From positions 88,324,651 through 88,388,650 of the forward strand of contig OY757026.1 of NCBI GenBank assembly GCA_963580285.1: 64,000 bases of DNA, given 5' to 3'. The DNA comes from Lucinisca nassula. Its lineage: Eukaryota > Mollusca > Bivalvia > Lucinida > Lucinidae. The translations under genes and the position numbers were made by a program. Of the stretch, positions 6,929 through 34,000 are shown piece after piece. The notes beneath the pieces were generated by a model. It ran no database searches, was not told the origin of the DNA, and saw only the letters and a program-made list of their open reading frames with translations. Position 1 is the first letter of the stretch. Each line of letters starts with the position of its first letter.

Positions 6929-7052
6929 TTGAAATTTTCCATGAGTTGGTTGCCTTTCATATGCTCTGGCTTGGTAACAGTGGATAATTTCATCAGATCT
7001 TCCGCGTAATAGTCTTCCTGATCCACTGAGAACTTGTGGAAAAACACTTTGG
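6929..7052 (-). CDS. TAF5: TAF5 exon 5
   Basis: Acceptor TTAATTTTTAG, then 2 bases + 40 codons + 2 bases, donor AA|GTAAGT. Reads (A)KVFFHKF, DQEDYYAEDL and KPEHMKGN, matching TAF5 AKSFFEKF, DQECYYQDDL and KKEHMKGN. It completes the phase-1 codon left by exon 4. The next exon was not found in 1-6928. Confidence 0.91.
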
Positions 7053-10000
7053 CTAAAAATTAAGATGAATTGTATATTTTTTTGATTTCATGGAACAAGT
7101 ACCAGGGCCTGGCAAATCCATTAGCCAGTAGCCCATGGCAAGTCCTGCATTAAGCTGGGCAAGCAGGGCTGGGATATTATTTAACCCATTCAGTACCGGA
7201 ATCCCCTAAACGGGTACCTTGACAAACAGTGCAGGCCCAGATAAGACGCCGCATTCTGCAGCATCTGATCAAGACCTCCACTGTTTGCAAAACGTGCAGC
7301 CATTTTCCAAACAAATTTTGAAGAAGACACAACCTGACACCCCTAAATTTTAAAAAGACTCCTGCTATATATAAGGAGAAAGATTCCATTTGGTACAAAA
7401 ATTGTTAAAATTTCACTCCTCCTACATGACCCAAGGGCATGACCCTGTTGATTTTCGTAAATTACATTGGGACTAGACAAAATCTTTACTCGTTCTCCAA
7501 ATTTTTTTTACTCGTCATGGCAAGCAGGCAAGTGGAATTTTCCAGCCCTGGCAAATGAATTCTTATTTGAGCCTGTGCATGACAAAACCTACAAAAAGAC
7601 ATGTGCATCCAGCAAAGAATCAGAGCAGCCTGTGCATCCATATAGCCGAACCAGAGACTTCTCTTGCTGCATGAAGTAGCAATGGGCCCTTAGAGCGCAC
7701 AGCGAAGACTCTGATCAGACTGTGGATGTGCATGCTGATCTGAGTCTTCACTGGGCACACAACTCATTGTAGGTTTTGGCATGTGCTGGCTAAATTCTTA
7801 TTTACACTCCAAACATAGGTTGTGGGTGCTTGTAGGAACTGCCTTAACGAGGCAGTTCTAAAGAGTACCCTCAATGCTCATAGGCAGTTCTAATGAGCAC
7901 CCTTAACCTACGTCTTGGAGGATAAATAAGAAAAATAATGTATACTCCTGTAAACCCCAGTTTTCTCAAAATGAAGCGGGGTTTAGCGAGGTGTTCATTA
8001 CAGGGAATTGTTAATGTGCTGGTCCAATTGTTCGAGGCTGTGTTCATAACATAAACTGTTCTAGCAAGTACACAAAACAGTGAGCTTCGTATGACTGAAG
8101 ATAACAATATAAACCAACAACATTGTTAAAACCCTTGTCCTGCTGAACCCAGATATGTCTTATCTTTCAAACAATGAAGATCCAGATCAGATGGCTTCTG
8201 AAGAAGCCATCTGATCAGGATCTTCATTGTTTGTCATTCAGTTTATGAATTTGTCGCAATAATTTGCATCAGGTAATCTGATTGGTTGATAATCGGTAGT
8301 GGGTGTGGCATATTTAAATATTCAGCAGGTCAAGGTTTAACTAAGAACAAGTGGATTCCGCCACATATGTTGACAAACAACATTGTTTGGATATCTTTTC
8401 GGTGTTTTATAATGAAAAGGTATGCTGTGTGTACTCATTAGAATCGCCTCATCGAGGCGATTCTAATGAGTACACACAGCATACATTTGCAAGATAAAGG
8501 ACAAAAATCTTCTAAATAATCCCACACTATTTCTTATGTCGAGAAATTTCCAAGGGACTCAAGAACGGGTTCGACTCAGTCATGGTAAACGTACCATCGG
8601 TGTTCGAGCCATCGAATTTCTACTGTATGTTGACAATCAACATTGTTACAAATAGCCCATGAAGTTTCTCCTGATCACTCTTCCCTATATTACTTGTCCC
8701 TATATTCTCACTAAATAGAATATATTAACATATTGTTGTTGTTGTTGTTTTTTTGTTTTATGTTGTTGTTTTTTTTTTTTTTTTTCATTAATATCCTCAT
8801 TGTGGCCCCCGCCCAGAAGGCTTGAAGAAATATATGGGCTGCATGATGCTTCCACGCAGAGCTGAAACCCACCCGCACACGAGTACTGGTAAACCGCTTA
8901 GAGGATCTAAGCCTACCCAGGCAAAGCAGTGCGAGTCAGCCCATCCATGCTTATAAGCCCTACTGGCTTCATTGGACGGCAGGGCTTGAGATGTCATTTC
9001 ATCTCAAAGTCCCACAAAATTGGAAGCAACGTCTCCAAAATGACCTTTACAGTGTTAAACCTCAAATCAAACAAACAAAAACTATCCTCTTTGTTTTTCA
9101 TTAATTTTTAGTTGTAGTCTTCAGCTTTAAAATTTTTCTGGCCAAAAGTTTCAGTGCATAATGAACATCTGTTTTTTTCTTTTGTTGAAATTTTAAGATT
9201 TGTACTCATTTTTCTCTTGTGTATCTATAGAAATGCAAGTCTGTCCCTGACAGTTATAATTTTCATCTTTGAAGTCATGAAAGATAACATTTTCTTGCAT
9301 ACCAGATAAGAATATCCAACATTAGCACAGGGTATAGAAATTCTTATCTCACCCTGTTTACCACAACCTGCTATGCACTATTTGCGACCCTCAGATGCCA
9401 GGCACAGTCGGTTCTGATCAGTCCAACCAGGGCTCGAGAAACTGAAGAATCCAAATCTGTCCAGCCAGATTTCGCCAAAAATTACGGAAATTGCCGATCG
9501 GTTTCGGTAATTTCCGTAAACGTCCTTGGTGGTTTGCTATTTCAAAATGTGTTATTAGCGTCACGAATGACATACCAGTGTTGCTCTTACACTTGTCAAC
9601 GGATATGAGCACCAGTATCTCGATTATAAACAGCAATTATTGCTCACATCGTTCAGATTACATCTACTTTCATTTTCCCCAATATCCGGGTCACTCAGAA
9701 CCTGAAGACCGCTAAAGGGAAACAACCGATGTGGGGCAGTCAAAGACCAGTTTGTGTTAATCTTTATCTAAGGGATGTAATTCATTTTATATAAGGGATG
9801 ATAATTATCTACCTTTGAACTACTGTGACGTCATTAACGTCATGACAACGGCGTAACGTCTTGATAACCTACTGTTTTTATGTCAGCCATTGTAAACATT
9901 CAACATGTAATTCCCTGAGTCTTTAGCATGATTTGACATTAACAAATGGTAGCAGAGCGAGAACAAGAATCTTTCAGCGTTGGATAGAATATGTAGAGAA

Positions 10001-13000
10001 TACAGAGGCAAGAATCGGCAAATTTTTGTTGAAAAACCATAAGCGACTGGAACTTGGGGGAAAAGGTGAAGTATAAATTGGCGAGTAATGGTGGAATTGA
10101 ATAAAAACAAATAAAAGATAGTACCAGGCAGAGTTAGAATCTTTGTAGACCAGGTGTGGAAAAAAAATTCCTGGAGAACAGAAGGATACAAAACTGGATT
10201 TTTATGAGAAATTGGTGGACACATTTTCAAAGAGGAGAAGTTTTAGCGGAGATATTAAGTGGCTTTAATCAAAATGACAACAAGGATAAACCCTCCATCA
10301 CTGGGCAAAGATAAGACTTATGAGCGTTTTAAACAAGAGGTTCTAGCATGGAGAGAAATTACAGATTTGTCAAAGACAAAACAGGGCATAGCAATAGCTT
10401 TGTCTCTACCAGAGGATGATGATTGTAAAATAAAGGATAAAGTATTTGATCAAATCTCACTGGAGGACCTTAAAAGGGAAGATGGGCTGGATAGACTTAT
10501 TAAATTTTTAGATAAACATTTGGGAAAGGATGATTTGGCTGACAGTTTAGAAAAGTTTGATGATTTTGATGATTTTGGAAGGAAAGAAGGGCAAAGCATT
10601 CAAGAATATATAGCTCTGTTTGATTTCAAATACAGAAAAATTGAGAAGAAAAATATGACACTTCCATCAGAAATTTTGGCCTTTAAATTACTGAAGAGAG
10701 CTAACATTACAAAAGAAGAAAAGCTGCTAGTTCTCACTGGGATGAATTTTGAGAATAAAACAAGTTTATATGAGGAAGCAAAAGCGTCACTGAAGAAATT
10801 TAAAGGCGATGAGAAAATTGGAAGTGAACATTTAGCTATAAAATTTGAGCCATCTTATGTAGCGGAAAATGCGGAGGCGCTTCTGACTGCTGGATATGTA
10901 AGAGCTAGACCCAGCAACCAAGGAAACAACAGAGGAAGAGACGTATTGGATAGGGAAGTATATAGAAATCAATACGCTAACTTTACCAGAAATACAAATG
11001 CTAAAAGAAAGAAAGTAAATCCAAAGGGACCAGATGGTCGACCTCTCATCTGTAACTGTTGTGGATCTTTTCGCCATTTGCTGGTTGACTGTCCAGACAG
11101 TTGGGAGAACATGGAGAAAGGTAGTGAAAAGGAAGATGAATATGATGTTCTGTTTGTAAGTAACAGACAAACTGATGTTACAGAGTGGAAAACATGCAAT
11201 TACGCTATTCTTGACAGTGCTTGCAGTCGCACAATATGCGGAAAGAAATGGTTGACATCTTACATGAACTGTATGAATAGAAAAGAAAGAGGAAAAATAC
11301 GTAAGATTGACAGTAATAGGGTTTTTAAATTTGGGAATAGCTTGAAATTTAAGTCAGAAGGGGAATACAGAATTCCAGCCATCATTGCTGGTAGGAGGGT
11401 GATGATAAGAACAGATGTTGTGGCTTCCGAGATTCCATTGCTACTTTCAAGATCTGCGATGAAAAATGCACAAATGAAATTGGACTTACAGGACGATAAG
11501 GCCACTATTTTTGGTCAAGATGTTGATCTGGAAATAACAGCTTCTGGACATTGCTGTATAAAGTTAGAATGTGAAAATAAGACAGAGGATGGAGATAAAG
11601 TATCAAAGATAAACAGTGTAAATAAGAGGTTTGGAAGATTGAAGATGGACAGACAGAAAAACCATCTTCACAGTGAAAGACTTAAAAGGGAAAGGAAAAA
11701 TCAGGTAATTAGACATGAAAAAATGGTGCCTGGATATGGTGAAAGATTAGAATATGAAAACTTAGGAACCAGTCAAAGTATGCAGAAAGATACAGTGACA
11801 ATAGGCAGCATCAGAAAGAGGATAAAGAGCAGTTATGATGATGTTGAAAAGGGTGTTGAGAAACAAAGTGAGTCTGTGAGGAAACCCATCAGGAGCGTAA
11901 AAGACAGTATATATAGCCATGGAAACAGTACTGTCAGTGATAGAAAAAGTGTCTGCAGGGAGTTCATCAGCAAAAGAGAACTTTCACTATTTTGCAGGGA
12001 AATGAATAGAAAAAGCAGCAAAACTGAAGTAAATACAACAAATAAGATGCAACAAGACGGATGGAGAAATGTCAACAGCAGAAACCAAATGCTTCAAAGG
12101 GACAAGGATAATATCCAGATAAAATAGGGGACAGGTTGTATGGGCTCGCACAAAAGGAAATAATTACTATCAGGCTCAAGGAACCAGATCACATAATGTT
12201 TATGACTTACAGTGATAAGCTTGTTCAAGTCAAATGGTAATTTATGATTTTCCAACAAGAAGAAACAGCACTTGAAATTGTAAAAATGCATGTATATTTT
12301 TGTCATTTGACCATGATCAAACTTAAAACTATTTTCAGAACATTTCCAATCTACCTGATATCCTACCAACAAAAGAAGAAAGTATAATTAATGTTAATCT
12401 TTATCTAAGGGATGTAATTCATTTTATATAAGGGATGATAATTATCTACCTTTGAACTACTGTGACGTCATTAACGTCATGACAACGGCGTAACGTCTTG
12501 ATAACCTACTGTTTTTATGTCAGCCATTGTAAACATTCAACATGTAATTCCCTGAGTCTTTAGCATGATTTGACATTAACAGTTTGATGGTCACTATATA
12601 AACCTTTAAAATATTTCTCTTATTTCATGCATTTTAGTTTGCCCAAATTGCTTTGTTTACAAATGGCGACCGATTTTGCAGCCACGTGGTCAGAAAATGA
12701 CCTCATACGGTTTCCGTTTACACAATACACATTAATGCAGTCAAGGACGTAACACACACACCTGTTTTATGTCATTGATTTTAATAGAGCGTATTTCTAA
12801 AAAAATCGCTTTGAAAGGTTTTAAAAATCTAAAAACATTTCTTTAATCTCGAACCAAAACATGACCGAACGAGAGTCATTGAAAATCTTACATGGCCGAA
12901 CGTTTTAAAAAATATAAATACATATTTCACGATTACACAAGCCTGAAACAAATCGCTTTGTCTTCAAATGATGAACGATATTGAAGCCACATGATCGGCA

Positions 13001-16000
13001 AATCACGTCATGCGTTTTCATTTTAATCCATTCAAGGGCGTAATACACACATGGTTTATGTTATTGGTTTCAAAGGAGCGCATTTCTTAAATACAAATAT
13101 CGTTTAGAATGGGTGAAATAAGGCATTTTCCCTCAAAGGCATAACACTCAATGTTCAGACATGACAGGTGTGTATTGAAAATTGCGGCCTGTGAAAAAAA
13201 AAGAACAAAAAAAAAACAATTTTATATTCAAATACCAGTTCTACAGTAAACCATAAATTAATGACTTGTGTAAACAAAATAGCGTATGTCCTGCATTGAT
13301 TGACCTAATTTTCTCACCTTGCCAGCTTGCCGATAATGCCTGAGGCCAGTGTTAACGGTTTAATAATTTCGCTGCAATAAGATCAAAGAACCCGACGTGG
13401 ACTTGTCCATTTTTCACCTAGTTAGATAATGAACTGGTCTAACACCTTGTGCTGTAGGCGTATTTTGTGTACATGCTTGGATTATCAGTGGCAAACGGTC
13501 AGCTTGTTACTACAACATAATGATTTAGCGAAAATTTTCGAACCGATTTTTTTTTAAATGTTACAGAATTGTGGACCGATTTTTTAATCTTCTTCTGAAG
13601 TCAAAATCGGTTTATGAAAGGCAAATTCGGTCCAGAACCGGAAAACCGACATTTTCTCGAGCCCTGAGCCCGACATTCCTTGGGTTGGAAACAGCTATAT
13701 TGAATCAATACTTGTAAAATATCCTTTTCTCACACTGGTGTGTTATCTAAATGGTACACCAACTTATCGTGTTGCTCATGACTATTTTATACAAGTTCTA
13801 AATACATATGGTCTGTTATCTAAATGGTACACCAACTTACCGTGTTGCTCATGACTATTTTATACAAGTTCTAAATACATATGGTCTGTTATCTAAATGG
13901 TACACCAACTTACCGTGTTGCTCAAGCCTATTTTACACAAGTTCTAAATACATATGGTCTGTTATCTAAATGGTACACCAACTTACCGTGTTGCTCATGA
14001 CTATTATACACAAGTTCTAAATACATAGGGATAAACACTGATTTCAGAATCATAGACAGCTCCACAAAATGGTACAACAACTTGACATGTTGCTTATGAC
14101 TATCATACACAAGTTCTAAATACATATCGATTAACACTGGATACAGAATCATAGACAGCTCCACTAAATGGTACATCTACTTGCCATGTTGCTTATGACT
14201 GTTATACACAAGTTCTAAATACATATGGGTAAACACTGGATACAGAATCCTAGACAGCTCCACTAAATAGTACACCAACTTACCATGTTGCTCATGACTA
14301 TTATACACAAGTTCTTAAAGGTGCATTATTGAGCTACCGGGTCTCAAATTTTTTTTCTGGTTTTTATCTTCAATGCATACTCCTTTGTCATGTGTACACT
14401 TTTGGAGCCAAATACAGCTTCAGAACCTTGTGAAAATGGTCGTTTTCATTCGTGTTTGCCCTTAGCTCTGAACATGTGTTCGGAATTTCTGTTCTAAAAA
14501 TAAATCTGCCACTTTACACATACATGGCGACAGTATCGTCTCTGAGTGTCGTTACTTATGGCATGATATTCAGCTTCATATTTTTTCCGATTCAGGCATG
14601 GCCTGAGCAAACAAGGCCAAAAAAGAATGTCGCATAAAGTCATATATGGGGATTCTATTTTTGTCACTAACTAAAAATAAATCTAACTAGTGTTCGAAAC
14701 CTAGTTAGGTAATCCCTCTCAAACTCGTTTACCGGTCATCATAATTATTCGCATTTTGGCATAAAATGCATTCATTTGTATTGTTTTAAAGAAAAATACT
14801 GGCTATATGTATTTTATTTTTGGAAGCATTTTTTTTCCAGATAGCTCAATAATGCACCTTTAATGCATATGGATAAACACTGGATACAGACCCATAGACA
14901 GCTCAACTAAATGGTACACCAACTTACCGTGTTGCTCATGACTATTATACACAAGTTCTTAATGCATATGGATAAACATTGGATACAGAATCATAGACAG
15001 CTCAACTAAATGGTACACCAACTTACCGTGTTGCTCATGACTATTATACACAAGTTCTTAATGCATATGGATAAACACTGGATACAGACCCATAGACAGC
15101 TCAACTAAATGGTACACCAACTTACCGTGTTGCTCATGACTATTATACATAAGTTCTAAATACATATGGATTAACACTTGATATAGAATCATAGACAGCT
15201 CCACTAAATGGTACATAAACTTACCTTGTTGCTCATGACTATTATACCGGCCCCCGCCTAAAGGGGCTTGAAGAAATATATGGGCTGCAGGATGCTTCCA
15301 CGCAGAGCTGAATCCGGCCCGCACACTAGTACTGGTAAACCGCTTAGAGGATCTAAGCCTGTCCAGGAACCGCGGTGCGAGGCGGACCGTCCATGCTAAT
15401 AAACCCTATTGGTTTCATTGGGCGACAGGGCTTGAGATGTCATTTCATCTCAATGTCGGGTAAAAGTCCCACAAAATTGGAAGCAACGTCTCCAAAATGA
15501 CCTTTACACTGTTGACGGGGACGTTAAACCTCAAATCAAATCAAACATGACTATTATACACAAGTTCTTAATGCATATGGATAAACACTGGATACAGAAT
15601 CATAGACAGCTCCACTAAATGGTACATTAACTTACCGTGTTGCTCATGACAATTATACACAAGTTCTAAATACATATGGATAAACACTGATTTCAGAATC
15701 ATAGACAGCTCCACAAAATGGTACAACAACTTGACATGTTGCTTATGACTATCATACACAAGTTCTAAATACATATCGATTAACACTGGATACAGAATCA
15801 TAGACAGCTCCACTAAATGGTACATCTACTTGCCATGTTGCTTATGACTGTTATACACAAGTTCTAAATACATATGGGTAAACACTGGATACAGAATCCT
15901 AGACAGCTCCACTAAATAGTACACCAACTTACCATGTTGCTCATGACTATTATACACAAGTTCTTAAAGGTGCATTATTGAGCTACCGGGTCTCAAATTT

Positions 16001-19000
16001 TTTTTCTGGTTTTTATCTTCAATGCATACTCCTTTGTCATGTGTACACTTTTGGAGCCAAATACAGCTTCAGAACCTTGTGAAAATGGTCGTTTTCATTC
16101 GTGTTTGCCCTTAGCTCTGAACATGTGTTCGGAATTTCTGTTCTAAAAATAAATCTGCCACTTTACACATACATGGCGACAGTATCGTCTCTGAGTGTCG
16201 TTACTTATGGCATGATATTCAGCTTCATATTTTTTCCGATTCAGGCATGGCCTGAGCAAACAAGGCCAAAAAAGAATGTCGCATAAAGTCATATATGGGG
16301 ATTCTATTTTTGTCACTAACTAAAAATAAATCTAACTAGTGTTCGAAACCTAGTTAGGTAATCCCTCTCAAACCCGTTTACCGGTCATCATAATTGTTCG
16401 CATTTTGGCATAAAATGCATTCATTTGTATTGTTTTAAAGAAAAATAAATACTGGCTATATGTATTTTATTTTTGGAAGCATTTTTTTTCCAGATAGCTC
16501 AATAATGCACCTTTAATGCATATGGATAAACACTGGATACAGACCCATAGACAGCTCAACTAAATGGTACACCAACTTACCGTGTTGCTCATGACTATTA
16601 TACACAAGTTCTTAATGCATATGGATAAACATTGGATACAGAATCATAGACAGCTCAACTAAATGGTACACCAACTTACCGTGTTGCTCATGACTATTAT
16701 ACACAAGTTCTTAATGCATATGGATAAACACTGGATACAGACCCATAGACAGCTCAACTAAATGGTACACCAACTTACCGTGTTGCTCATGACTATTATA
16801 CATAAGTTCTAAATACATATGGATTAACACTTGATATAGAATCATAGACAGCTCCACTAAATGGTACATAAACTTACCTTGTTGCTCATGACTATTATAC
16901 CGGCCCCCGCCTAAAGGGGCTTGAAGAAATATATGGGCTGCAGGATGCTTCCACGCAGAGCTGAATCCGGCCCGCACACTAGTACTGGTAAACCGCTTAG
17001 AGGATCTAAGCCTGTCCAGGAACCGCGGTGCGAGGCGGACCGTCCATGCTAATAAACCCTATTGGTTTCATTGGGCGACAGGGCTTGAGATGTCATTTCA
17101 TCTCAATGTCGGGTAAAAGTCCCACAAAATTGGAAGCAACGTCTCCAAAATGACCTTTACACTGTTGACGGGGACGTTAAACCTCAAATCAAACAAATCA
17201 AATCAAACATGACTATTATACACAAGTTCTTAATGCATATGGATAAACACTGGATACAGAATCATAGACAGCTCCACTAAATGGTACATTAACTTACCGT
17301 GTTGCTCATGACTATTATACACAAGTTCTAAATACATATGGATAAACACTGATTTCAGAATCATAGACAGCTCCACAAAATGGTACAACAACTTGACATG
17401 TTGCTTATGACTATCATACACAAGTTCTAAATACATATCGATTAACACTGGATACAGAATCATAGACAGCTCCACTAAATGGTACATCTACTTGCCATGT
17501 TGCTTATGACTGTTATACACAAGTTCTAAATACATATGGGTAAACACTGGATACAGAATCCTAGACAGCTCCACTAAATAGTACACCAACTTACCATGTT
17601 GCTCATGACTATTATACACAAGTTCTTAAAGGTGCATTATTGAGCTACCGGGTCTCAAATTTTTTTTCTGGTTTTTATCTTCAATGCATACTCCTTTGTC
17701 ATGTGTACACTTTTGGAGCCAAATACAGCTTCAGAACCTTGTGAAAATGGTCGTTTTCATTCGTGTTTGCCCTTAGCTCTGAACATGTGTTCGGAATTTC
17801 TGTTCTAAAAATAAATCTGCCACTTTACACATACATGGCGACAGTATCGTCTCTGAGTGTCGTTACTTATGGCATGATATTCAGCTTCATATTTTTTCCG
17901 ATTCAGGCATGGCCTGAGCAAACAAGGCCAAAAAAGAATGTCGCATAAAGTCATATATGGGGATTCTATTTTTGTCACTAACTAAAAATAAATCTAACTA
18001 GTGTTCGAAACCTAGTTAGGTAATCCCTCTCAAACTCGTTTACCGGTCATCATAATTGTTCGCATTTTGGCATAAAATGCATTCATTTGTATTGTTTTAA
18101 AGAAAAATACTGGCTATATGTATTTTATTTTTGGAAGCATTTTTTTTCCAGATAGCTCAATAATGCACCTTTAATGTATATGGATAAACACTGGATACAG
18201 ACCCATAGACAGCTCAACTAAATGGTACACCAACTTACCGTGTTGCTCATGACTATTATACACAAGTTCTTAATGCATATGGATAAACATTGGATACAGA
18301 ATCATAGACAGCTCAACTAAATGGTACACCAACTTACCGTGTTGCTCATGACTATTATACACAAGTTCTTAATGCATATGGATAAACACTGGATACAGAC
18401 CCATAGACAGCTCAACTAAATGGTACACCAACTTACCGTGTTGCTCATGACTATTATACATAAGTTCTAAATACATATGGATTAACACTTGATATAGAAT
18501 CATAGACAGCTCCACTAAATGGTACATAAACTTACCTTGTTGCTCATGACTATTATACCGGCCCCCGCCTAAAGGGGCTTAAAGAAATATATGGGCTGCA
18601 GGATGCTTCCACGCAGAGCTGAATCCGGCCCGCACACTAGTACTGGTAAACCGCTTAGAGGATCTAAGCCTGTCCAGGAACCGCGGTGCGAGGCCGACCG
18701 TCCATGCTAATAAACCCTATTGGTTTCATTGGGCGACAGGGCTTGAGATGTCATTTCATCTCAATGTCAGGTAAAAGTCCCACAAAATTGGAAGCAACGT
18801 CTCCAAAATGACCTTTACACTGTTGACGGGGACGTTAAACCTCAAATCAAACAAATCAAATCAAACATGACTATTATACACAAGTTCTAAATGCATATGG
18901 ATAAACACTGGATACAGAATCATAGACAGCTCCACTAAATGGTACATTAACTTACCGTGTTGCTCATGACTATTATACACAAGTTCTAAATACATATGGA

Positions 19001-22000
19001 TAAACACTGGATACAGAATCATAGACAGCTCCACCTGCAAAATATATGACCAACAGTATAACAGTCAACCCTCTCTATAATGACATTTGATATAGCGATA
19101 AAACGTGTTATAAAAACAATTTAAATGGAACAATCCCTTGATCCAGGTGAGATGCAAACTAAGAAAAATTATATGAAATTATCCAATAAACATATGTCCT
19201 GGGTATTTGATAGAATCACTGAGGCAATTCTTACCAAAATCCACATCACATGCTTCTTGTAGTACCATAATGATCATAAGTACTTGGACAGACATGCCTA
19301 AGCAAACAGTGCAACTCATCCACACCCATGTAAGATCTTTTTCTAGCATACATTTCTCTTCTTAGCATGGATTTTTAATAAGGCTGTTAATCTGACTGCT
19401 GATGTCTGGCATATCATGCATGACAATGCTGTAACGGGTAGCGACACCTGGATACATGAGTGACATCAACCTTTATGACATGATATCAGGTCAAACCAGT
19501 GCATATCAACTTTTATCATATGATGTTGCGTCTGAGAATGTAATAACGTCATGTAATAAATTCGATAATCCACTAGTGGATTAAATATGCAAATTAGTTA
19601 GATAAGCCCCGTAACTTTATATGTAGGACGTCCTTAACGACGTCGCATTAACTTATGGCGGAATATTGACATTTTTGTTAACAAATCGTGAACAAAATGC
19701 GTTTTAAATGTCATATGATAAATAGAATCTTACATTCCTGTTCATGTATTATTGAATTTATTAAACTCGTTGAGGAAAAGGGATGAAATGCTCGATAAGG
19801 CCTCACATTTTATCCCTTTTTCTCAACTCGTTTTAATAAATTCAATAATACATGAACACGAATGTAAGATCCTCTATACCAACAATTTATTAAACTCGTT
19901 GAGGAAAAGGAATAAAATGCGAGGCTTTGCCTCGCATTTTATCCCTTTTCCTCAACGAGTAATAATACATGAGCACTCAAGGAAGATCCTCTATATCAAG
20001 CATAGGAGGTTTCTAGATTTTTATCCCATCCGTGGGTAGGATAACCTCAGTAGGAAAAGGATAACCTCAGTAGGATAAGTGTGTGTGTGTGAATTTGGGT
20101 TAAACGTCGCTTTCAACAATTTTTCAGTCATATCACGACAGTGTCTGGTTGCAACAGGGAGCTCAATGCTCACTTTTATAGTGCTGCCTCACTGAAGTAT
20201 CATGTCCCAGACACATTACATGATACCACACCCAGTCACATTATCCTGACACTGGGTCGACCAGTCCTAGCTCTACCCCGTAAATCTGAGTGCCAAGCGA
20301 GGAGCAGCTAGTACCATTATTAACAACTTTGGTATGTCGCGACCCAGGATCGAACCCGTGACCTCCCGTTCCCCGGAGCGGACACTCTACCAACTGAGCT
20401 ATCGGGGCCAGTCAGTAGGATAAGGATAACCTCAGTAGGATAAGGATAACCTCAGTAGGATAAGAGTTTCTATCCCAGGGTAAAATCCAGGATTTCCTGA
20501 TCTAGTTTGTAAGAAAAAATATTTGTATGTGTACCTTGTGCACATCCAGACAAGATTCAATGAACATCTTGAAGTCTGTGTAATTATCATCGTACAATGT
20601 GGGGTCATCTTCACTGAAAGAGAAACAAGACAAAATAATTCAGAATCCTCCAGTCAAAGACTTGCTAGCTTAACCCATACTGTACTGGAAACACTCAAGA
20701 CGGGTAATTGGCAAGCAGTGCAGGCCCAGATCAGATGCCGCAGAAAGTGGCGTCCGATCAGGGCCTACACTGTTGCAAACAGTTCAGCCATTTTCCAAAC
20801 AAATTTTGGATAAAGAAAAAAACACAACCTGACACGTCCAAATTTTGCAATGGACTTGTTGTGCTGCTAAGGAGGAAGATTCCATTTGGTACAAAATGGG
20901 AAAAGGAACTTGTGGTCAAAATATTTTTTTTGTGTGAATTATGCAGCATATATGCTTTTTTATGTGTTGCAAGTATGCATACATTTGTATGTTTTACATC
21001 GTCACACTCCATGCAAGACACTTTTGTACTTGAAGCAGTACAAGTCTGAGCAAAGTTCAAAGATTGGAAGTAAATAGAGGATCTTACATGAGTGGTCATT
21101 TTATATGAAATTTATGAAACGAGCCTTTGGCGAGTTTCATAAATTTCATATGAAATGGCCATGAGTGTAAGATTCTGTTTATCATATGACCATTTTAAAT
21201 TGGATTTTATCGCCTTTAAATTTGGCATCTTTTTCCACAACAAGAATTCCGCAGAAGGCGGTGTCGCACCTGCTGGGGGCGAAAGTCATAGAAGCCACAA
21301 TCAGAATGTTGTTATTAACTAGAGAAAGTTACCAGTGGGTCACGTATACCCCCGGCCAGCGTCACCCTCTGATATATCTTTCGAGCTTGTATGTAATATG
21401 AATGAAGTCAAGAAGCTATAAGAATCTATAAATGTGCTTGTAAAAGCTAAACCAAACATAAAATTTCTAAATGGACCAAGGGAGTGAGGGCATCAAATAG
21501 AACATACAGGCATCTATCAACTTTGACATAAAACTTTAACCAAATGTAAAATTTCTAAGTCCGTGACCTTGAGGTCAAGGTCACCGTGGGTGGGGGAAGG
21601 GACATGTATCATGAATCATTTATCAAACATGAAGAGAATCTAACATGTGGTTACAGAGATATCAGCCATGAAAAAGGTTTAACACAAAACTTTGACATAC
21701 AAGTAGATGAACAGACAGACAGACAGCCTACCGAGGGGCTTGACCCAGGGGCTTAGATATTCCATATGAAAGGTAATGCTATAGAGATATCCTTTACCAA
21801 ACATGAAGAGAATCTAACATGTGGTTACAGAGATATCAGCAATGAAAAAGGTTTAACACAAAACTTTGACGAAAAATTAGATGAACAGACAGACAGACAG
21901 CCCACCCACGGGCTTGACCCAGGTGCTTAGATATTCCATATGAAAGGTAATGCTATAGAGATATCCTTTACCAAACATGAAGAGAATGTAACATGTGGTT

Positions 22001-25000
22001 ACAGAGATATCAGCAATGAAAAAGGTTTAACACTAAACTTTGACGAAAAATTAGATGAACAGACAGACAGACAGCCCACCCAGGGGCTTGACCCTGGGAC
22101 TTAGATATTCCATATGAAAGGTAATGCTATAGAGATATCCTTTACCAAACATGAAGAGAATCTAATTTGTGGTTACAGAGATATCAGCAATGAAAAAGGT
22201 TTAACACTAAACTTTGACGAAAAATTAGATGAACAGACAGACAGACAGCCCACCCACGGGCTTGACCCAGGGGCTTAGATATTCCATATGAAAGGTAATG
22301 CTATAGAGATATCCTTTACCAAACATGAAGAGAATCTAACATGTGGTTACAGAGATATCAGCAATGAAAAAGGTTTAACACAAAACTTTGACGTAAAAGT
22401 AGATGAACAGACAGACGGACAGACAGACAACCCACCCAGGGGCTTGACCCAGAGGCATAGATATTCCATATGAAAGGTAATGCTATAGAGATATCCTGTA
22501 CCAAATATGAAGAGAATCCAACCTGTGGTTACAGAGATATGAGCAATCAAAAAGGTTTAACGCAAAACTTTGACATAAAGGTTGACGAACGACCGAACGA
22601 ACGTACGAACGAACGAACAAACGAACGAACCAACGAACGGACGAACGGACGGAAAGACGAAAACTATATACCCCCTGACATACTTCGTATGCCGGGGCTA
22701 TAATTAAGTAAATTTCATAGCAGTTGATAGTTGATGTAAAATGTGTCAAAGTCACTGGACCAAAAAATATAGGCCATGGTCACCAGGTCAAGGTACATGC
22801 CAAATCAGTACATTGAGGAGAAGTACTATGCAAAGTTTGGTGGCTGTAGGCCATTTATTTTAGGACATATTGAACATTGACGTTTGTTTGTTTGTTTGAT
22901 TTGAGGTTTAACGTCCCCGTCAACACTGTAAAGGTCATTTTGGAGACGTTGCTTCCAATTTTGTGGGACTTTTACCCGACATTGAGATGAAATGACTTCT
23001 CAAGCCCTGTCGCCCAATGAAACTAATAGGGTTTATTAGCATGGACGGTCCGCCTCGCTGTTCCTGGACAGGCTTAGATCCTCTAAACGGTTTACCAGTA
23101 CTAGTGTGCGGGCCAGATTCAGCTCTGCGTGGAAGCATCATGCAGCCCATATATTTCTTCAAGGAACATTGACGTAAAAGTCGCTGGAGTGCATAATATA
23201 GGTTAAGGTCACTAGGTCAAGGTACCCACAGAGTAAGTAAATGTAGGAGAAGCACTATGCAAGGTTTGGTGGTTGTAGGCCTTATAAGAAGATATGGAAT
23301 GTCGACCTAAAATGTGTTAAAGTCAATGGAGTGCAAAAAATAGGTCCAGGTCACCAAGCCAAGGTACCTGCATAGTCAGTACATCTAGGAGAACCACTAC
23401 GCAAGATTTGGTGGTTGCAGGCCTTTTATTTGAGAAGATCTGGAAAATTGACGCAAATTGTATCAAAGTCAATGGAGCGTAAACTAGAGAAAGTGACCAG
23501 TGGGTCACGTATACCCCCGGCCAGCGTCACCCTCTGATATATCTTTCGAGCTTGTATGTGATATGAATGCAGTCAAGAAGCTATAAGAATCTATAAATGT
23601 GCTTGTAAAAGCTAAACCAAACATAAAATTTCTAAATGGACCAAGGGAGTGAGGGCATCAAATAGAACATACAGGCATCTATAAACTTTGACATAAAACT
23701 TTAAGCAAATGCAAAAATTTCTAAGTCCGTGACCTTGAGGTCAAGGTTACCATGGGTGGGCGAAGGGACATGCATCAAGAAATCATTTATCAAAAAGGAA
23801 GAGAATCTAAAATGTGGTTACAGGGATATCAGCCATGAAAAAGGTTTAACACAAAACTTTGACGTAAAAGGAGATGAACAGACAGACAGACAGCCCTACC
23901 AGGGGCTTGACCCAGAGGCTTAGATATTCCATAGGAAAGGTAATGCTATAGAGATATCCTTTACCAAACATGAAGAGAATCTAACATGAGGTTACAGAGA
24001 TATCAGCAATGAAAAAGGTTTAACACAAAACTTTGACGTAAAATTAGATGGACAGACAGACAGACAGCCCATCCAGGGGCTTGACCCAGGGACTTAGATA
24101 TTCCATATGAAAGGTAATGCTATAGAGATATCCTGTAACAAACATGAAGAGAATCTAATATGTGGTTACAGAGATATCAGCAATGAAAAAGGTTTAACAC
24201 AAAACTTTGACGTAAAAGTAGATGAACAGACAGACGGACAGACAGACAACCCACCCAGGGGCTTGACCAAGGTGCTTAGATATTCCATATGAAAGGTAAT
24301 GCTATAGAGATATCCTGTACCAAATATGAAGAGAATCCAACCTGTGGTTACAGAGATATGAGCAATGAAAAAGGTTTAACGCAAAACTTTGACGTAAAGG
24401 TTGACGAACGACCGAACGAACGTACGAACGAACAAACGAACATATGAACGAACCAACGAACGGACGAACAGACGGAAAGACGAAAACTATATACCCCCTG
24501 ACATACTTCGTATGCCGGGGGTATAACTAGAGAAAGTGCCCAGTGGGGCACGTATACCCCCGACCAGTGCCATCCCCTTTTAGTGGAAATGAAAATTTGT
24601 TTGTAGCATTGAACCTTTCCATATAAACTTTCCATTTAGTCCACTGAGAATAACTATTGCATTTCAACAAATATAGAATAATTTATCATATCCAAAGATG
24701 AGACTGCTTGTCTTTGCTGAATAATAAAAAATCAAAGTTTGTTGCAATTTGGAACAATTTCAACTGGAAACAACAAACATAGAATAGGCTGTCATAGAAC
24801 ATTTGCTGAATTAAAGTAGCTGTATAATGACATAATAAAGCAATGCATTTTTTATTATTACTTGCATTTATTATTGTCTGCATTTCAAGAGAAAATATTA
24901 TGCAAAATTTAACAGTTCTGGTCACTGTTGTTTCTAAGATCACAAGGACCAATATACATGTATAAACTGACAAATATGACAAGGGTCACAGCATAAAGAA

Positions 25001-28000
25001 ACAACAAACTAACTAATAATGAACAGATGGAAAGACAAAAACTATAACCTTTGATATACTTTGTATGCAAGGAGTATAATGAAAACACTTATCAAATCCT
25101 GTACCATATACTATTATGCGATGTATATATGTGAATTTATTGTAATAAATATTGTTTAAACCAAAACAGTTAACACAAAACTTGGACGTGATCAAAATGT
25201 GTAAGTCCTTATTATTGACCCATAGCCCCACCCGGGGGCTTGACACAGGAGCTTAGATATTCCATATGAAAGTTAATACTATAGCTATATTCTGTACCAA
25301 ATATGAAGAGAATCTAACATGAGGTTACAGAGATATAAGCAATCAAAAAGGTTTAACACAAAACTTCGACTTAAAAGTTGACAAACTGACAGACAGCCCA
25401 CCCAGGGGCTTGACCCAGGGGCTTAGATATTCCATATGAAAGGTTATGCTATAGAGATATCCTTTACCAAATATGAAAAGAATCTAACATGTAGTTACAG
25501 AGATATGAGCAATCAAAAACATTGACGTAAATATTGATGAACGGACTGACGGGTGAACAGCCCACCCAGGGGCTTGACCCGCGAGCTTAGATATTCCAAA
25601 TGAAAGGTATTGCTATAGAGATATCCTGTACCAAATATGAAGAGAATCAAACATGTGGTGACAGAGATATGAGCAATCAAAAAGGTTTAACACAAAACTT
25701 TGACGTAAAAGTTGACAAACGGACAGACAGCCCACCCAGGGGCTTGACCCAGGGGCTTAGATACTCCATATGAAAGGTAATGCTATAGAGATATCCTGTT
25801 CCAAATATGAGGAGAATGCAACATGTGGTGACAGAGTTATTAGCAATCAAAAAGGTTTAACACAAAACTTTGACGTAAAAGTTGACAAACGGACAGACAG
25901 CCCACCCAGGGGCTTGACCCAGGGGCTTGGATATTCCATATGAAAGGAAATGCTATAGAGATATCCTTTACCAAATATGAAGAGAATCTAACATGCAGTT
26001 ACAGAGATATGAGCAATCAAAAAGGTTTAACACAAAACTTTGACGTAAAAGTAGATGAACAGACAGACGGACAGACAGACAGCCCACACAGGGGCTTGAC
26101 CCTGGGGCTTAGTTATTCCATATGAAAGGTAATGCTATAGAGATATCCTTTACCAAATATGAAGAGAATTTAACATGTGGTTACAGAGATATGAGCTATC
26201 AAAAAGGTTTAACGCAAAACTTTGACGTAAAGGTTGACGAACGGCGGGACGGACGGAAGAACGAACGAACGAACTAACGAACGGACGGAAAGACGAAAAC
26301 TATATACCCCCTGACATACTTCGTATGTCGGGGGTATAAATATAGGTCAAGGTCACCAGGTCAAGGTACCTGCAGAATCAGTACATCCAGGAGCAGCATT
26401 ATGCAAGATTTGATGGTTGTAGGCCTTTTATTTGCAGAGATCTGGAACTTCGACATAAAAATTTGTCAGTCGCTGGAGCGTAAAATATAGGTCAAGGTCA
26501 CCGGGTCAAGGTACCTGCAGAGTCAGTACATCCAGGAGAAGCACTATGCAAGATTAGATGGTTGTGGGCCTTTTATTTGAGATCTTGAACTTTGACGTAA
26601 AATGTGTCAAAGTCAGTGGAGAGTAAAATATAGGTCAAGGTCACCATGTCAAGGTATCTTCAGAGTCAATACATCTAGGAGAAACACTATCCAAGATTTT
26701 ATTGTTGTAGGCATTTTATTTGAGAAGATCTGGAACATTGACATAATTTGTGTCAAACTCCCTACTGGAGCGCAAAATATAGGTCAAAGTCACCAGGTCA
26801 AGGTGCTTACAAAGTGAGAATGTCTATGAGATGTTTCATGTAAGGTTTGATGGTAGCTGAGGTTTGTAAAATAAAAACTTTGACGTAAATGTCGAACTTC
26901 GAAGTAAATGTTAACAGACAGATGGATGCATGGATGCACGGATGAACGGACGGAAAATCGGACGCCTATGTCGCAACCTGCTATAAGCAGGTGCGACAAA
27001 AATGCATGGTTGACATGGACATCATTATGACATTTCTTAATCCTGCCATATTGTTATTACACGTGTGGTCATACAATTTTTATTACACCACGTTATCCAC
27101 TGCTTATCAACGTCATATGATAATACAGACTCTTGTTATAGTGTAAAAAAAAAAAAATCTCCAGGCATTTGATTGGACAGTGCAAGGGTAGTTTTGTTTG
27201 TTTATTTTCCATATACCCCAGGCCTGTGAGCAAAAATATATTACCCTCACACGCTTGCCTTTGCTGAATTGCGATGTCCGCCATCTTGGATTTACTGCAG
27301 CTGATAAGAAATACAAGCAAAATAATTTCATGCACCATCAATAAATAGAATTATAAAACTTTTTGGTTGTTTTACATACATTAGGTACCGTATTTAAATG
27401 TTTTCCGTTATAAAGCTCATTCTTATATGACATCTAAGCATTCTCCCATTGAGCTCCGTGACCAACATAGTGCATGCAGAAGGGTGTGTTTGAAGTCACA
27501 TATAAACATGTACTTCTGATGGCGTCCACTACAAAAGCATCCCATGGAAAACTTTGCAGCAACGTACAAAATATCATCAAAAAAGCGTTCAAGTATAACA
27601 AATTCGCTATTTTGATTCTAGGATCACATTCCCTATCTGAATGCGATATTAATGGCTCGGGCAAATATCGCTCTCAGGCGGGCAATGTTATCCCATGTTC
27701 CCCATCAACAATCAAAATAACTTAAATTGTTTACTGAGACAATCCCTTTCTTACAACCACCAGCCTTTTGATTCCCCACCAATCTGGGCTTGGAGAAAAA
27801 GACTGGGCTGCATGGTGCTTCCACGCAGAGCCGAAAACAACCAAACTTGAGAACCGACCGCTTAGGTCTAAGCCGGCCCAGGAAAAGTGGTGCGAGGCCT
27901 ACCACTCCTTAAAGGTGCATTATTGAGCTACCGGGTCTCAAATTTTTTTTTCTGGTTTTTATCTTCAATTCATACTCCTTGGTCATGTTTACACTTTTGG

Positions 28001-31000
28001 AGCCAAATACAGCTTCAGAACTTGGTGAAAATGGTCGTTTTCATTCGTGTTTACCCTTCGCTCTGAACATGTGTTCGGAATTTCTGTTCTAAAAATAAAT
28101 CTGTCACCTTACACATACATGGCGACAGTATCGTCTCTGAGTGTCGTTACTTATGGCATGGTATTCAGCGTCATATTTTTTTCCGATTCAGGCATGGCCT
28201 AAGCAAACAAGGCCAAAATGAACGTCGCATAACATCATATATGGGGATTCTATTTTTGTCATGAACTAAAAATAGATCTAACTAGTGTTCGAAACCTAGT
28301 TAGGGAATCCCTCTCAAACTCGTTTACCTGTCATCATAATTGTTTGTATTTTTGCATAAAATGCATTCATTTGTATTGTTTTAAAGAAAAATACCGGCTA
28401 TATGTATTTTATTTTTGGAAGCATTTTTTACCGATAGCTCAATAATGCACCTTTAAACTCTACCGGTTTCTTTGAGCAGTAGATTTCATCTCTATGTTGG
28501 GTAAAAGTCCCACAAAAGCAGAAGCAATGTCTCCAAAATTGCCTACTAGTGTTTTTCCTTTATTTTTTGATTTGGGTTTAAGGCCCTTTCAAGATTATTT
28601 CACTCATATCTAGCTGATCCTTAATCAGAGGTGTGTGAAAACTAGAGTACCCAGAGAAAAACCACCTGACCATCAGTTGTCACATATGATCCGAGCCAGG
28701 CTCAAACCCAGTGTTGAGAGACCTAATGATTAAGAGTCGGCGCTCTTATCCACTAGGCCACAGAGGCCTATCAAACTACTAGTGTTGATAGGGCCATAAA
28801 ACCACAACATAAACAAACACACCAGGGCCCCCGCCCATCGGGGCTTGAAGAAATATATGGGCTGCATGATGCGTCCACCCAGAGGTGAAACCGACCGCAA
28901 ATGAGTACTGGTAAACTGCTTAGAGGATCTAAGCCTGCCCAGGAAAAGTGGTGCGAGGCCCACCACTCCTTGAACTCTAGTGGTTTCTTTGAGCAGTAGA
29001 TTTCATCTCTGTGTTGGGTAAAAGCCCCACAAAAGCAGAAGCAATGTCTCCAAAATGACCTAAAGAGTTGATGGGACATAAAACCTCGACATAAACAAAC
29101 ACACCAACCTTTTGTAAGCTGCGAGAGCATGAGAAACCTCTGACTCTGAAGGTGTAGTTGTCTCCTGTTTGACATCAGCATCACTTATACCAGATTCTCT
29201 CTTAAGTAGTTCCTCTGTACCCTAGAAACAGAATAATTTACAGATAATATGATCCTTAGAGGATCTTACATGAGTGTTCATGTATTACTGAATATATTAA
29301 ACTTGTTGAGGAAAAGGGATAAAATGCTCGGCAAAGCCACGCATTTTATCCCTTTTCCTCAACTTGTTTAATAAATTCAAATATTCCACCATTAGTAAAA
29401 GCAACGTCGTTAATGACGTCGTACATGTAACATTACGAGGCGTATCTAACTAATTTGCAGATTTAATCCACTAGTGGATTATCAGAAGCCTCCGTGGTGC
29501 AGTGGTTTCGCTACTTGCCTTGTAAACCAGGGGTCGCAAGATCGATCCCGGGCTTCTCCAGACTTTCGGATGAGTCTTTAAACCGAGGTCCTGTCCTTGT
29601 ATGACCTTAGCTGTTGGTGGGACATAAAACTCAAACACTCACTGGTGGATTATCAAATTTACAACATGGCGTTATTACATTCTAAGACGCGACGTCACGA
29701 TCCCGGGCTTCTCCAGACTTTTTGATGAGTCGGACTAAACAAAATTAGTGTATACCGCAACAGAGGTAAGGGCGAGGATTATGGCCATGTAAAATGGATT
29801 TAAGCCCCCCAGTGGAATTTCCAAGGCGGTTCTTCTGTGGCGGTATATTTATGTTGTTGTTTGTTACTACTTACTGCGGACATATACATTGATTACGGTA
29901 AAAACATTAACCGTGGACAGAGTTCTCGGAAACGCCGAATGCGGTGTATTTTTACACCTGTTTTTGCTTTTGAATGCATAAAATTTCCTGCCGTGGATTC
30001 TTAATTCCACGATGGAAGGCATATTTGATATCTTATCATTTCAGATTTACCTACTGCAGAAAAAAATGGCAGTACCCATGAATAAAAAACATGTCGAAAC
30101 TAGAAATGTGTCCAGATGACACAGATGCCCCCGCCAAGGGCCCCGCCTCACCCCGAAATAGCCAAATTGACCTTGACCTTGAAAGTCGAATTAGCTCAAG
30201 ATATTGTCAACAGGAACATTTGTGAGAAGTTATATTGAAATTGGTGAAAAAATGTAGTCGCTAGAGCCATGGCAATGATTTTCTAAAAATAGCCACAGTG
30301 ACCTTGACCTAGAAAGTCGAAATCGCTCGAGATAATGTCATAAGGAACATTTGTGTGAAGTTATATTGAAATCGGTGATGAAATGTAGGCGCTATAGCGA
30401 TGACAAAGTTTTTCTAAAAATAGCCACAGTGACCTTGACCTTGAAAGTGGAACTCGTAAAAGATATTGTCATAAGGAACATTTGTGTGAAGTAATATTGA
30501 AATTGGGGAAAAAATGTAAGCGCTAGAGCAATGACAAAGTTTTTCTAAAAATAGCAACAGTGACCTTGACAGTCAAACTCGTTCGAGGTATTGTCATAAG
30601 GAACATTTGTGTGAAGTTATTTTGAAATCAGTGAAGAAATGCAGGCAAAGTTTTTCTAAAAATAGCCAGTGACCTTGACCTTGAAAGTGGAACTCGCTAG
30701 AGATATTGTCATAAGGATCATTTGTGTGAAGTTATATTGAAATTAGTCAAGAAATGTAAGCGCTAGAGCGATGACAAAGTTTTTCTAAAAATAGCCATAG
30801 TGACCTTGACCTTGAAAGTCAAAATAGGTCGAGATATTGTCATAAGGAACATTTGTGTGAAGTAATATTGAAATTGGTGAAGAAATGTAGGCGCTAGAGC
30901 GATGACAAAGTTTTTCTTAAAATAGCCACAGTGACCTTGACCTTCAGGTGATGACCTTGAAAGTCGACCTCGCTCAAGATATTGTCATAAGGAACATTTG

Positions 31001-34000
31001 TGTTAAGTTATATTGAAATCAGTGAAGAAATGTAGGCGCTAAAGCAATGACAAAGTTTTTCTAAAAATAGCCACTATGACCTTGACCTTGAGGCCATGAC
31101 CTTAAAGGTCGAACTTGCATGAGATATTTTTATAAGGAACATTTGTGTGAAGTTATATTGAAATTGGTGGTACAAATACCTTAACCAAAGTCTTAAACAT
31201 TAAAAATTTTCTAATTCTGTGACCTTGACCTTGAGGTCATGGGTATGGGTGGGGGTATTGCTGAATAAACCATTTGACCTATATGTATCATCATAGTAAA
31301 TATAAACCAAATTTATTGTATGGTTATGAAAATATGAGCTGAAGTTCTACCTGGTACAAATACCTTAACCTGGGTCTTAAACATTAAAAATTTCAAAGTC
31401 CACGACCTTGACCTTCAGATCATGGTTATGGGCGGGGGTATTGCTGAATAAAACTTTGGTACAAATACCTTAACTTGGGTCTTAAACATTAGAAATTTCT
31501 AAGTTCGTGACCCTGACCTTGAGGTCATGGGTATGGATGGGGGTATTGCTGAATAAAACTTTGGACCTATATCTATCATCATACTAAATATAAACCAAAT
31601 CTGTTTTATGGTTTGGAAAACATGAGCTCAAGTTCTACCTTGTACAAAAACCTTAACCTGAGTCTAACAGGATTACGTACGTACATACACACTTTCGTAC
31701 AGAAGGACGTACATTCGGACACCCGTACGCACGTACCCACGGACGCACGTATGGAAAACCGAAAAACTCTATGCCCCGGCATCATCCGATGCGGGGGCAT
31801 CAAAATTTTCTGGTTTTTACACCGGGTAGGCTTTTTCAAAGACAGCTTTCTTTCTATATATACTGCAACGCCCCCACACAAGGATGACATGCAGGTGTAT
31901 ATTATATACATCCCCAGGTTTGCATGCTTAAGCAGGAGCTTGGTAGTACTAAGGGCCTATGAACTTCAGCCTTTAGCTGAAGAGAGAGATATAGTAGATA
32001 AACATATTTGTCATTCAGCCACCAAGTTTGCTGTGTGTGTTACCGAAGGCCAAGACAAGCTTCCTACGCTATACTGGTTACCAAAACTTCATAAAAGACC
32101 TTACAAAGCACGGTTTATTGCAAATTCTAGCTCTTGCACTACCACTGAACTTTCTAAATTATTAACTTCCTGTCTTACTGCTATTAAAACGCATGTGATT
32201 AAATATTGTGATAAAGTCTTTGAAAGATCAGGAAGAAATCTGTTTTGGTCTATAAAAATTCGAATGAGCACCTCTTGTGGCTGATCTGTTCTTGTATTGT
32301 TATGAAAGAGACTTCATTTTGTCGCTTTCCATTGATAACCAATCTGAAATTATTGAAGCTTTTAGCTCTACTTCTAGATATTTAGATGATTTATTAAATA
32401 TTGATAATACCTATTTTGATGGTTTGATCAGTCAGATTTACCCCCTAGAACTTCAGTTAAATAAAGCAAATTCTTCTGATACCGAAGCCCCGTTTTTGGA
32501 TTTACATCTATCTATTGTAGATGGATTTGTTTCGTGCAAAATTTATGATAAACGCGATGACTTTGATTTTGAGATTGTAAATTTTCCTTTTTTGGATGTG
32601 TAATATCCAGTTATCAGCCTATCATTTGATAGATCTAGTAATAGATCTTATTGTGATGTCAATAACGTTACGTCGCTTATGACGTTAGTTACTGTTCCAT
32701 AGTTACATTGTTATCATCTGAAGAACACATCTATCACACAACTGAGAGTCTTTCAATTAATGATATCACCCGAAACGGGCATTGGCCCGTTTCGGATGTT
32801 ACATTGGCGACGAGGAAAAAATGGAAAAGGGGATAGAAGGACAGAAGAATATGGTCTAAAGCAGAGAAAGGGAGAATGAAGATTAAAATATTAATGACAT
32901 ATTGTCAAGCAGCCTGGGAAAACCACAATAGAAGATGCCAGAGAGGCAAGAGAGGCAACAGAAAATGCCAAGAGAGGCAATAAAAGATGCCAAGCGGTAA
33001 CATAAGATGTCAAAAGGCAACTAAAGATACCAAGAGGGGCAATAGAAGATGCCAAGAGGCAACTGAAGATGCCAAGAGAGGCAATAGAAGATGCCAAGAG
33101 AGGCAATAGAAGATGCCAAGAGGCAACTGAAGATGCCAAGGGAGGCAAATGAAGATGCCAAGAGGCAAGAGAGGCAACAGAAAATGCCAAGAGAGGCAAC
33201 AGAAGATACCAAGAGGCAACTGAAGATGCCAATAGAGGCAATAGAAGATGCCAAGAGGCAACTGAAGATGCCAAGAGAGGCAAATGAAGATGCCAAGAGG
33301 CAACTGAAGATGCCAAGAGAGGCAAAAGAATGCCAAGAGGCAATAGAAGATGTGAAGAGGCAATAGAAGATGCCAAAAAGAGGCAATAGAGGATGCCAAA
33401 AAGAGGCAATAGAAGATGCCAAAACGAGACAATAGAAGATGTCAAGAGAGGCAATAGAAGATGCCAAAAGAGACAATTGAACATGACAATAGATGCAATA
33501 GGAGATGCCAAGAGAGGCAAAGAGGCAACAGATGCTGCTGCAGACCTTCGACGACGTTCTAGCAATACCGGGAAAATAAAATGCGATAAAGAAATGGGAT
33601 CAGAGACATAAGTGACAAGTTAATGAACATTTACTGTTAGGCTTATCTTCGACCGCATTATTGTTTCATATTTCAAAGTAACTCAAATAGGAACGAATTG
33701 TAATACCGACTCCTTGATATCCTTATTCAACAGTTGTTAAGATTCGTAGAAATAAACTGTCTTTTAAAAGAAAAGGAGAGATGTAATATCCAGTTATCAG
33801 CCTATCATTTGATAGATCTAGTAATAGATCTAATTGTGATGCCAATAACGTTACGTCGCTTATGACGTTAGTTACTGTTCCATAGTTACATTGTTATCAT
33901 CTGAAGAACACATCTATCACACAACTGAGAGTCTTTTAATTAATGATATCACCCGAAACGGGCATTGGCCCGTTTCGGATGTTACAGGATGGTGATGTTC

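Follow-up and report, generated by a model that had tools for sequence, protein, structure and literature searches.

What becomes of an exon that has been copied many times over into its own downstream intron? The question is raised by a 64,000-nucleotide stretch of the bivalve Lucinisca nassula (GCA_963580285.1, contig OY757026.1, positions 88,324,651 to 88,388,650 of the forward strand; hereafter the window), in which exon 4 of TAF5 is followed by a tandem array of copies of itself. An earlier note, made from the sequence alone, had counted about 27 copies and read them as possibly spliceable cassette exons. We also count 27, comprising 24 of exactly 99 bp and three truncated to 73 bp. The evidence presented here makes it very probable that the array is an intronic satellite seeded by exon 4, whose copies show no protein-level constraint and are normally spliced out with intron 4.

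The gene is TAF5, which encodes TFIID subunit 5. The top PDB match of the peptide of exons 4 and 5 is TFIID subunit 5 (E 1.3e-23, 66 residues gap-free), and the same peptide contains the Pfam domain TFIID_NTD2 (PF04494; 81.2 bits against a cut-off of 22, E 1.1e-22). Three exons lie in the window, each with AG and GT borders, and their joint translation runs without a break:

20535-20613, minus strand: TAF5 exon 3, 79 nt, ending in ...VHK and then GT
18956-19034, minus strand: true TAF5 exon 4, 79 nt, GTG GAG ... CAC G, the putative founding monomer of the array
6929-7052, minus strand: TAF5 exon 5, 124 nt, CC AAA GTG ..., acceptor ATTTTTAG

True exon 4 is bordered by the acceptor TTTTGCAG and the donor GTAAGTTAAT, and the intron that follows it (7053-18955) measures 11.9 kb. 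A tblastn search of the window with a TAF5 query gave no hit better than E 0.5 beyond exons 3–5 and the array, so the remaining TAF5 exons are probably outside the window or poorly conserved.

Anatomy of the exon 4 array

In the window, a profile of the 99-bp unit matches 34 pieces; all lie on the minus strand, within 13749-19034, and together they form one array. Whole copies reach nhmmer E values down to 1.2e-23, and pieces cut by insertions are as weak as 2.9e-6. Copies were counted after excising six insertions, which split six of the 24 99-bp copies. Each 99-bp unit consists of a 79-nt exon copy and 20 nt of copied downstream intron that include the 5' splice site; the division into 78 and 21 nt given in the earlier note is the same unit, with the boundary in the note shifted by one base so that it begins behind AG. 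The exon part of true exon 4 is identical to the array consensus.

13967-18935, minus strand: 24 copies of 99 bp each (c01 to c24), in an eight-monomer higher-order repeat, interrupted by six insertions
13748-13966, minus strand: three 73-bp copies, 219 bp, each with 44 nt of exon and 29 nt of flank; second duplication junction

The monomers follow a higher-order repeat (HOR) with a period of eight. Their mean difference is 0.59 at a lag of eight versus 8.5–10.7 at each other lag between 1 and 12, a periodicity matched by none of 10000 shuffles of the copy order. True exon 4 occupies the first place of the first unit:

17377-19034, minus strand: HOR unit 1 (exon 4 and c01 to c07), 1658 bp
15715-17376, minus strand: HOR unit 2 (c08 to c15), 1662 bp
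14066-15714, minus strand: HOR unit 3 (c16 to c23), 1649 bp

Compared in pairs, the units differ by 9, 10, and 3 mismatches (99.46, 99.39, and 99.82% identity), and c24 starts a fourth unit. The array is a HOR satellite: its monomers run head to tail, and the HOR copies are far closer to one another than neighboring monomers are.

Every HOR unit also contains one insertion resembling a short interspersed nuclear element (SINE-like) and one resembling a miniature inverted-repeat transposable element (MITE-like):

18558-18865: SINE-like insertion in c01, 308 bp, 13-bp target-site duplication TATAATAGTCATG
16900-17207: SINE-like insertion in c09, 308 bp, duplication TATAATAGTCATG
15247-15545: SINE-like insertion in c17, 299 bp, duplication TATAATAGTCATG
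17630-18170: MITE-like insertion in c05, 541 bp, terminal inverted repeats and TTAA duplication
15968-16512: MITE-like insertion in c13, 545 bp, TTAA duplication
14319-14859: MITE-like insertion in c21, 541 bp, TTAA duplication

Because the insertions occupy equal HOR positions and carry equal duplications in every unit, they appear to predate the amplification to three units. The two labels are based on duplications, lengths, and dispersed relatives. The earlier note had overlooked both the HOR structure and these six insertions. In the window, the SINE-like sequence has nine more BLAST rows, some of them short, and the MITE-like element one more match (27911-28455, 94% identity). Five of the nine dispersed SINE-like matches lie at 22889-23163, 8804-9077, 43806-44091, 44479-44731, and 28826-29101, with 76–95% identity. 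That the array is part of a mobile element is not supported: exon 4 and its flank account for the monomer and the junctions, and all six mobile-like insertions, duplications included, sit inside the array.

Splice sites, frame, and substitutions in the copies

The cassette proposal had been built on phase and splice sites. The phase stands: exon 4 joined to copy c02 and then to exon 5 is open, in frame, and longer by 26 residues, as expected of a symmetric 1-1 exon. The claim that every copy has an acceptor and the same donor holds for most copies only, with the acceptor AG kept in 21 of 24 and the GT donor in 18 (three have GC and three TC). TAA stops interrupt the splice frame of 11/24 copies. 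Fully intact copies, with AG, GT, an open frame, and no insertion, number three (c02, c10, and c18) and are identical in sequence:

18417-18515, minus strand: copy c02, the first of the three fully intact copies

Six further copies are uninterrupted and keep AG and GT, with a TAA stop in frame (c03, c04, c11, c12, c19, and c20). The remainder comprise three with a GC donor, three with TC where the donor should be, three without the acceptor AG, three split by the SINE-like insertion, and three split by the MITE-like insertion. Frame and splice sites, the marks of a functional cassette or mutually exclusive exon array, are thus kept together in 3/24 copies.

The copies' acceptor itself is a by-product of the junction between units. 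The 99-bp copies are preceded by CATTTA, except for CATTTT at c08, c16, and c24 and TATTTA at c06, c14, and c22, and the join CATTTA|GTGGAG places an A before the first G of the exon, which together make up the AG. Weak polypyrimidine tracts had been offered as the reason why the copies might be silent, an argument that does not survive counting: of the 14 upstream positions, 7–9 are pyrimidines in the copies, 8 in true exon 4, 11 in exon 5, and 13 in exon 3. Intron 4 AGs that lie outside the array (312) have a mean of 7.3/14, and 30% reach 9. The pyrimidine count is a crude measure with little power, which marks the copies neither as weaker than their founder nor as usable. The description of the array as rich in decoy splice sites was borne out: from the true donor, which is included, to the array end there are 21 GTAAGT motifs versus 2 in 6.7 kb of intron 4 outside, a ~13-fold higher density.

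The 33 residues per unit that the earlier note had calculated for reading straight through the array are right for a single unit, but in the actual sequence a stop at 18861-18863, in the first SINE-like insertion, ends the frame 57 residues after the start of exon 4, which rules out a read-through coding array. A structured RNA was rejected as well, as a search of 13700-19100 against Rfam gave no match at gathering score.

Substitutions among the copies show no imprint of the protein. The reference was a consensus built from exon 4 plus the eight monomer types, in which exon 4 is one of nine votes (a mild circularity). Of 33 distinct changes relative to it, 24 fall within the first 78 nt and 9 within the remaining 21 sites. 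Four of the 24 exon-part changes are synonymous versus 5.1 expected under neutrality (kappa 1.5; P for 4 or more, 0.79), and the density of changes does not differ between exon and spacer (24 at 78 sites, 9 at 21; P 0.37). Purifying selection on the copies was not detected from these 24 exon changes, which are few and thus compatible with weak selection. Neutral substitutions and frequent stops, named in the earlier note as one half of what would refute usable cassettes, are both what the copies display. Its suggestion of variable-length TAF5 therefore finds little support, and its reservation that the copies are mostly silent fares better, on grounds other than the pyrimidine tracts.

Origin, turnover, and competing explanations

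Exon 4 has been joined to its flank in two distinct ways, which suggests that it was duplicated on two occasions. Besides the 99-bp junction described above, the 73-bp copies join CATTTAGATAACAGA to CCATATG within the exon. The last copy is followed by CATTTAGATAACACACC, presumably native intron, and GATAACA occurs both in the distal 73-bp copies and after the last copy. The junctions may have arisen at microhomology. A DNA hairpin as the trigger was considered and discarded, since the one monomer folded (c03) was less stable than most of its shuffled versions (z 1.14), 179 of 200 of which equal or surpass it.

We infer the following order of events. A tandem duplication, probably at microhomology, would have copied TAF5 exon 4 together with 20 nt of the downstream intron; the 99-bp unit would then have expanded, and its monomers diverged to about 9–11%. 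One SINE-like and one MITE-like element would next have inserted, before unequal exchange, in which true exon 4 probably paired with a distal copy, multiplied the eight-monomer block to three units. The copies show no visible constraint at the protein level and would normally be removed with intron 4.

The part played by true exon 4 is suggested by a few diagnostic sites. Changes at monomer positions 22, 24, and 25 are confined to c08, c16, and c24, and an A at position 87 is found only in exon 4, c08, and c16. Copies c08 and c16, which carry the c24 changes at 22–25 and the AA of exon 4 at 87–88, look like recombinants between exon 4 and the array, with a c24-like front and an exon-4-like back. 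Unequal crossing-over between exon 4 and a c24-type copy, with a break between positions 26 and 86, would produce this pattern and add one HOR unit in a single step. If this pattern is rightly understood, a selected exon participates in the turnover of its own satellite.

Several points weigh against an unconstrained satellite of this history. The c02-type copies retain AG, GT, and an open frame, with 9/14 pyrimidines at the acceptor versus 8/14 at the true exon. The 24 consecutive 99-bp monomers (13967-18935) contain no indel, against 39 substitutions inferred by parsimony (one tree); such an outcome has a probability of 0.008, 0.02, or 0.14 at substitution-to-indel ratios of 8, 10, or 20 to 1. 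Alone among the patterns described, it fits poorly with neutrality, to a degree set by the assumed ratio. We propose that exchange turnover may account for it by removing out-of-register monomers. The AA/GG pattern at positions 87–88 could alternatively stem from conversion of c24 by distal copies carrying GG, and array length and HOR are based on a single assembly.

That last point bears on whether the HOR units were over- or under-counted through an assembly artefact or mixed haplotypes. Units 99.4–99.8% identical, in one assembly, are the kind of repeat that assemblers miscount, but these carry unit-specific differences: 9- and 4-bp indels, the recombinant-like c08 and c16, and a stop present in c09 and c17 and absent from c01. 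Diverged monomers within a unit would also be unexpected as an assembly error, and we regard such an artefact as very unlikely. Cassette exons, by which copies would sometimes be spliced between exons 4 and 5 and add 26 residues each to TAF5, appear very unlikely as well. Compatible phase, the open exon 4–c02–exon 5 join, and the three intact copies speak for them; the small number of qualifying copies, the 11 with stops, and the neutral substitution pattern speak against. The added unit would moreover sit inside NTD2, a helical domain, and human TAF5 aligns gap-free across the exon 4/5 joint.

Stop-bearing copies or array donors could instead form a reservoir of poison exons and decoys that send TAF5 mRNA to decay, with array length tuning the output. 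The six uninterrupted copies with TAA would serve such a role, as would the dense GTAAGT motifs, and exon 4 extended to any donor beyond 18861 runs into the stop at 18861-18863. In the available part of PMC3948165, an intronic variable number tandem repeat is reported to alter TERT splicing; the TERT repeats, however, act by RNA pairing, and same-sense exon copies would not be expected to pair with their own exon. The copies also show no sign of selection, with the GT donor lost in 6/24 and the acceptor in 3/24, which leaves the reservoir very unlikely. In a related reading, which we consider decidedly unlikely, the satellite has a working exon of a core gene as its master monomer: the exon would be kept by selection, unequal exchange with it would reseed and lengthen the array, and the six poison copies and ~20 decoy donors would lower TAF5 output in a copy-number-dependent manner that may vary between individuals. 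An exon-seeded satellite that is normally spliced out agrees best with the evidence, and c02-type or stop-bearing copies may on rare occasions be included.

Genomic setting and known systems

When an 85-residue array open reading frame was compared with ~5.8 billion proteins, one of 46 candidates reached E 0.001 or better (P0001, 74 residues, E 1.1e-5). Past Q-VELSVILYPVFIHMYLELVYNGHEQH-GKF its sequence is unrelated: this is a single exon 4 with borders as here, and no copy appears in the next 54 bases, where in Lucinisca one would start after ~20. Its source is probably another organism, and this one sequence fits a lineage-specific array. Of 50 pattern matches for TAF5 in prokaryote genome contigs, none was confirmed.

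The surroundings are themselves rich in repeats. Fifteen other tandem arrays with a period of at least 90 bp cover 9622 bp, or 15%, of the window (overlapping rows merged); array birth is therefore common in this window, and it is no great surprise to find an exon drawn into one. Three adjoining arrays with 170–174 bp units and similar translated frames lie at 21615-26244, and a 22-bp tandem array of 26.5 copies (consensus CAAGAGAGGCAATAGAAGATGC) at 32947-33520. The equal or near-equal open frames at 490-960 and 1878-2351 are apparently another local duplication. Within TAF5 intron 4 itself, on the plus strand, a 622-residue open frame (10259-12127) contains CNCCGSFRHLLVDCP, a zinc-knuckle-like stretch. 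The frame resembles a gag-type retroelement gene, and Pfam gave no match to it at E 0.001.

The locus is of interest as a satellite whose seed is still identifiable: within 5.3 kb lie the constrained exon, the tandem phase of 99 bp, transposon-like insertions that mark time, and the HOR amplification. It illustrates how a tandem duplication junction can by chance create a phase-compatible false exon, and it raises the question of how the splicing of a core gene tolerates ~20 GTAAGT decoy donors. In titles and abstract beginnings of the open-access literature, no exon-derived HOR in TAF5 was found among the matches listed.

Known systems resemble parts of this arrangement. Judging by its title, one published gene-internal tandem array likewise repeats a 5' splice site; its unit is reportedly ~12 nt around the donor alone, and its extra donors are said to be used, whereas here the unit comprises an entire exon and its donor, has an acceptor by accident, and is arranged in a HOR. 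Like the TAF5 array, NBPF/Olduvai repeats consist of exon-plus-intron units in tandem within a gene and are organized as a HOR, with close HOR copies and distant monomers; for the NBPF 3mer HORs, the available part of PMC9584774 gives a divergence of ~1–1.6% between HOR copies and ~17–19% between monomers. According to the same part of that source, NBPF units encode protein domains and have two exons plus introns each, whereas the TAF5 array has spacers of 20–21 bp, stops in 11/24 copies, and 3/24 copies intact. With tandemly duplicated mutually exclusive exons, as described in the available part of PMC6071210, the array shares an origin by tandem exon duplication; those exons stay usable, and most TAF5 copies do not. 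In the oyster C. gigas, satellite-like arrays are carried by Helentron elements, Cg_HINE (PMC7492417, available part), and the likeness lies in short dispersed satellite-like arrays in an animal genome rich in them. The Cg_HINE arrays are described there as central repeats of mobile elements, whereas a host exon appears to have seeded the TAF5 array on the spot, and this founder still adjoins it.

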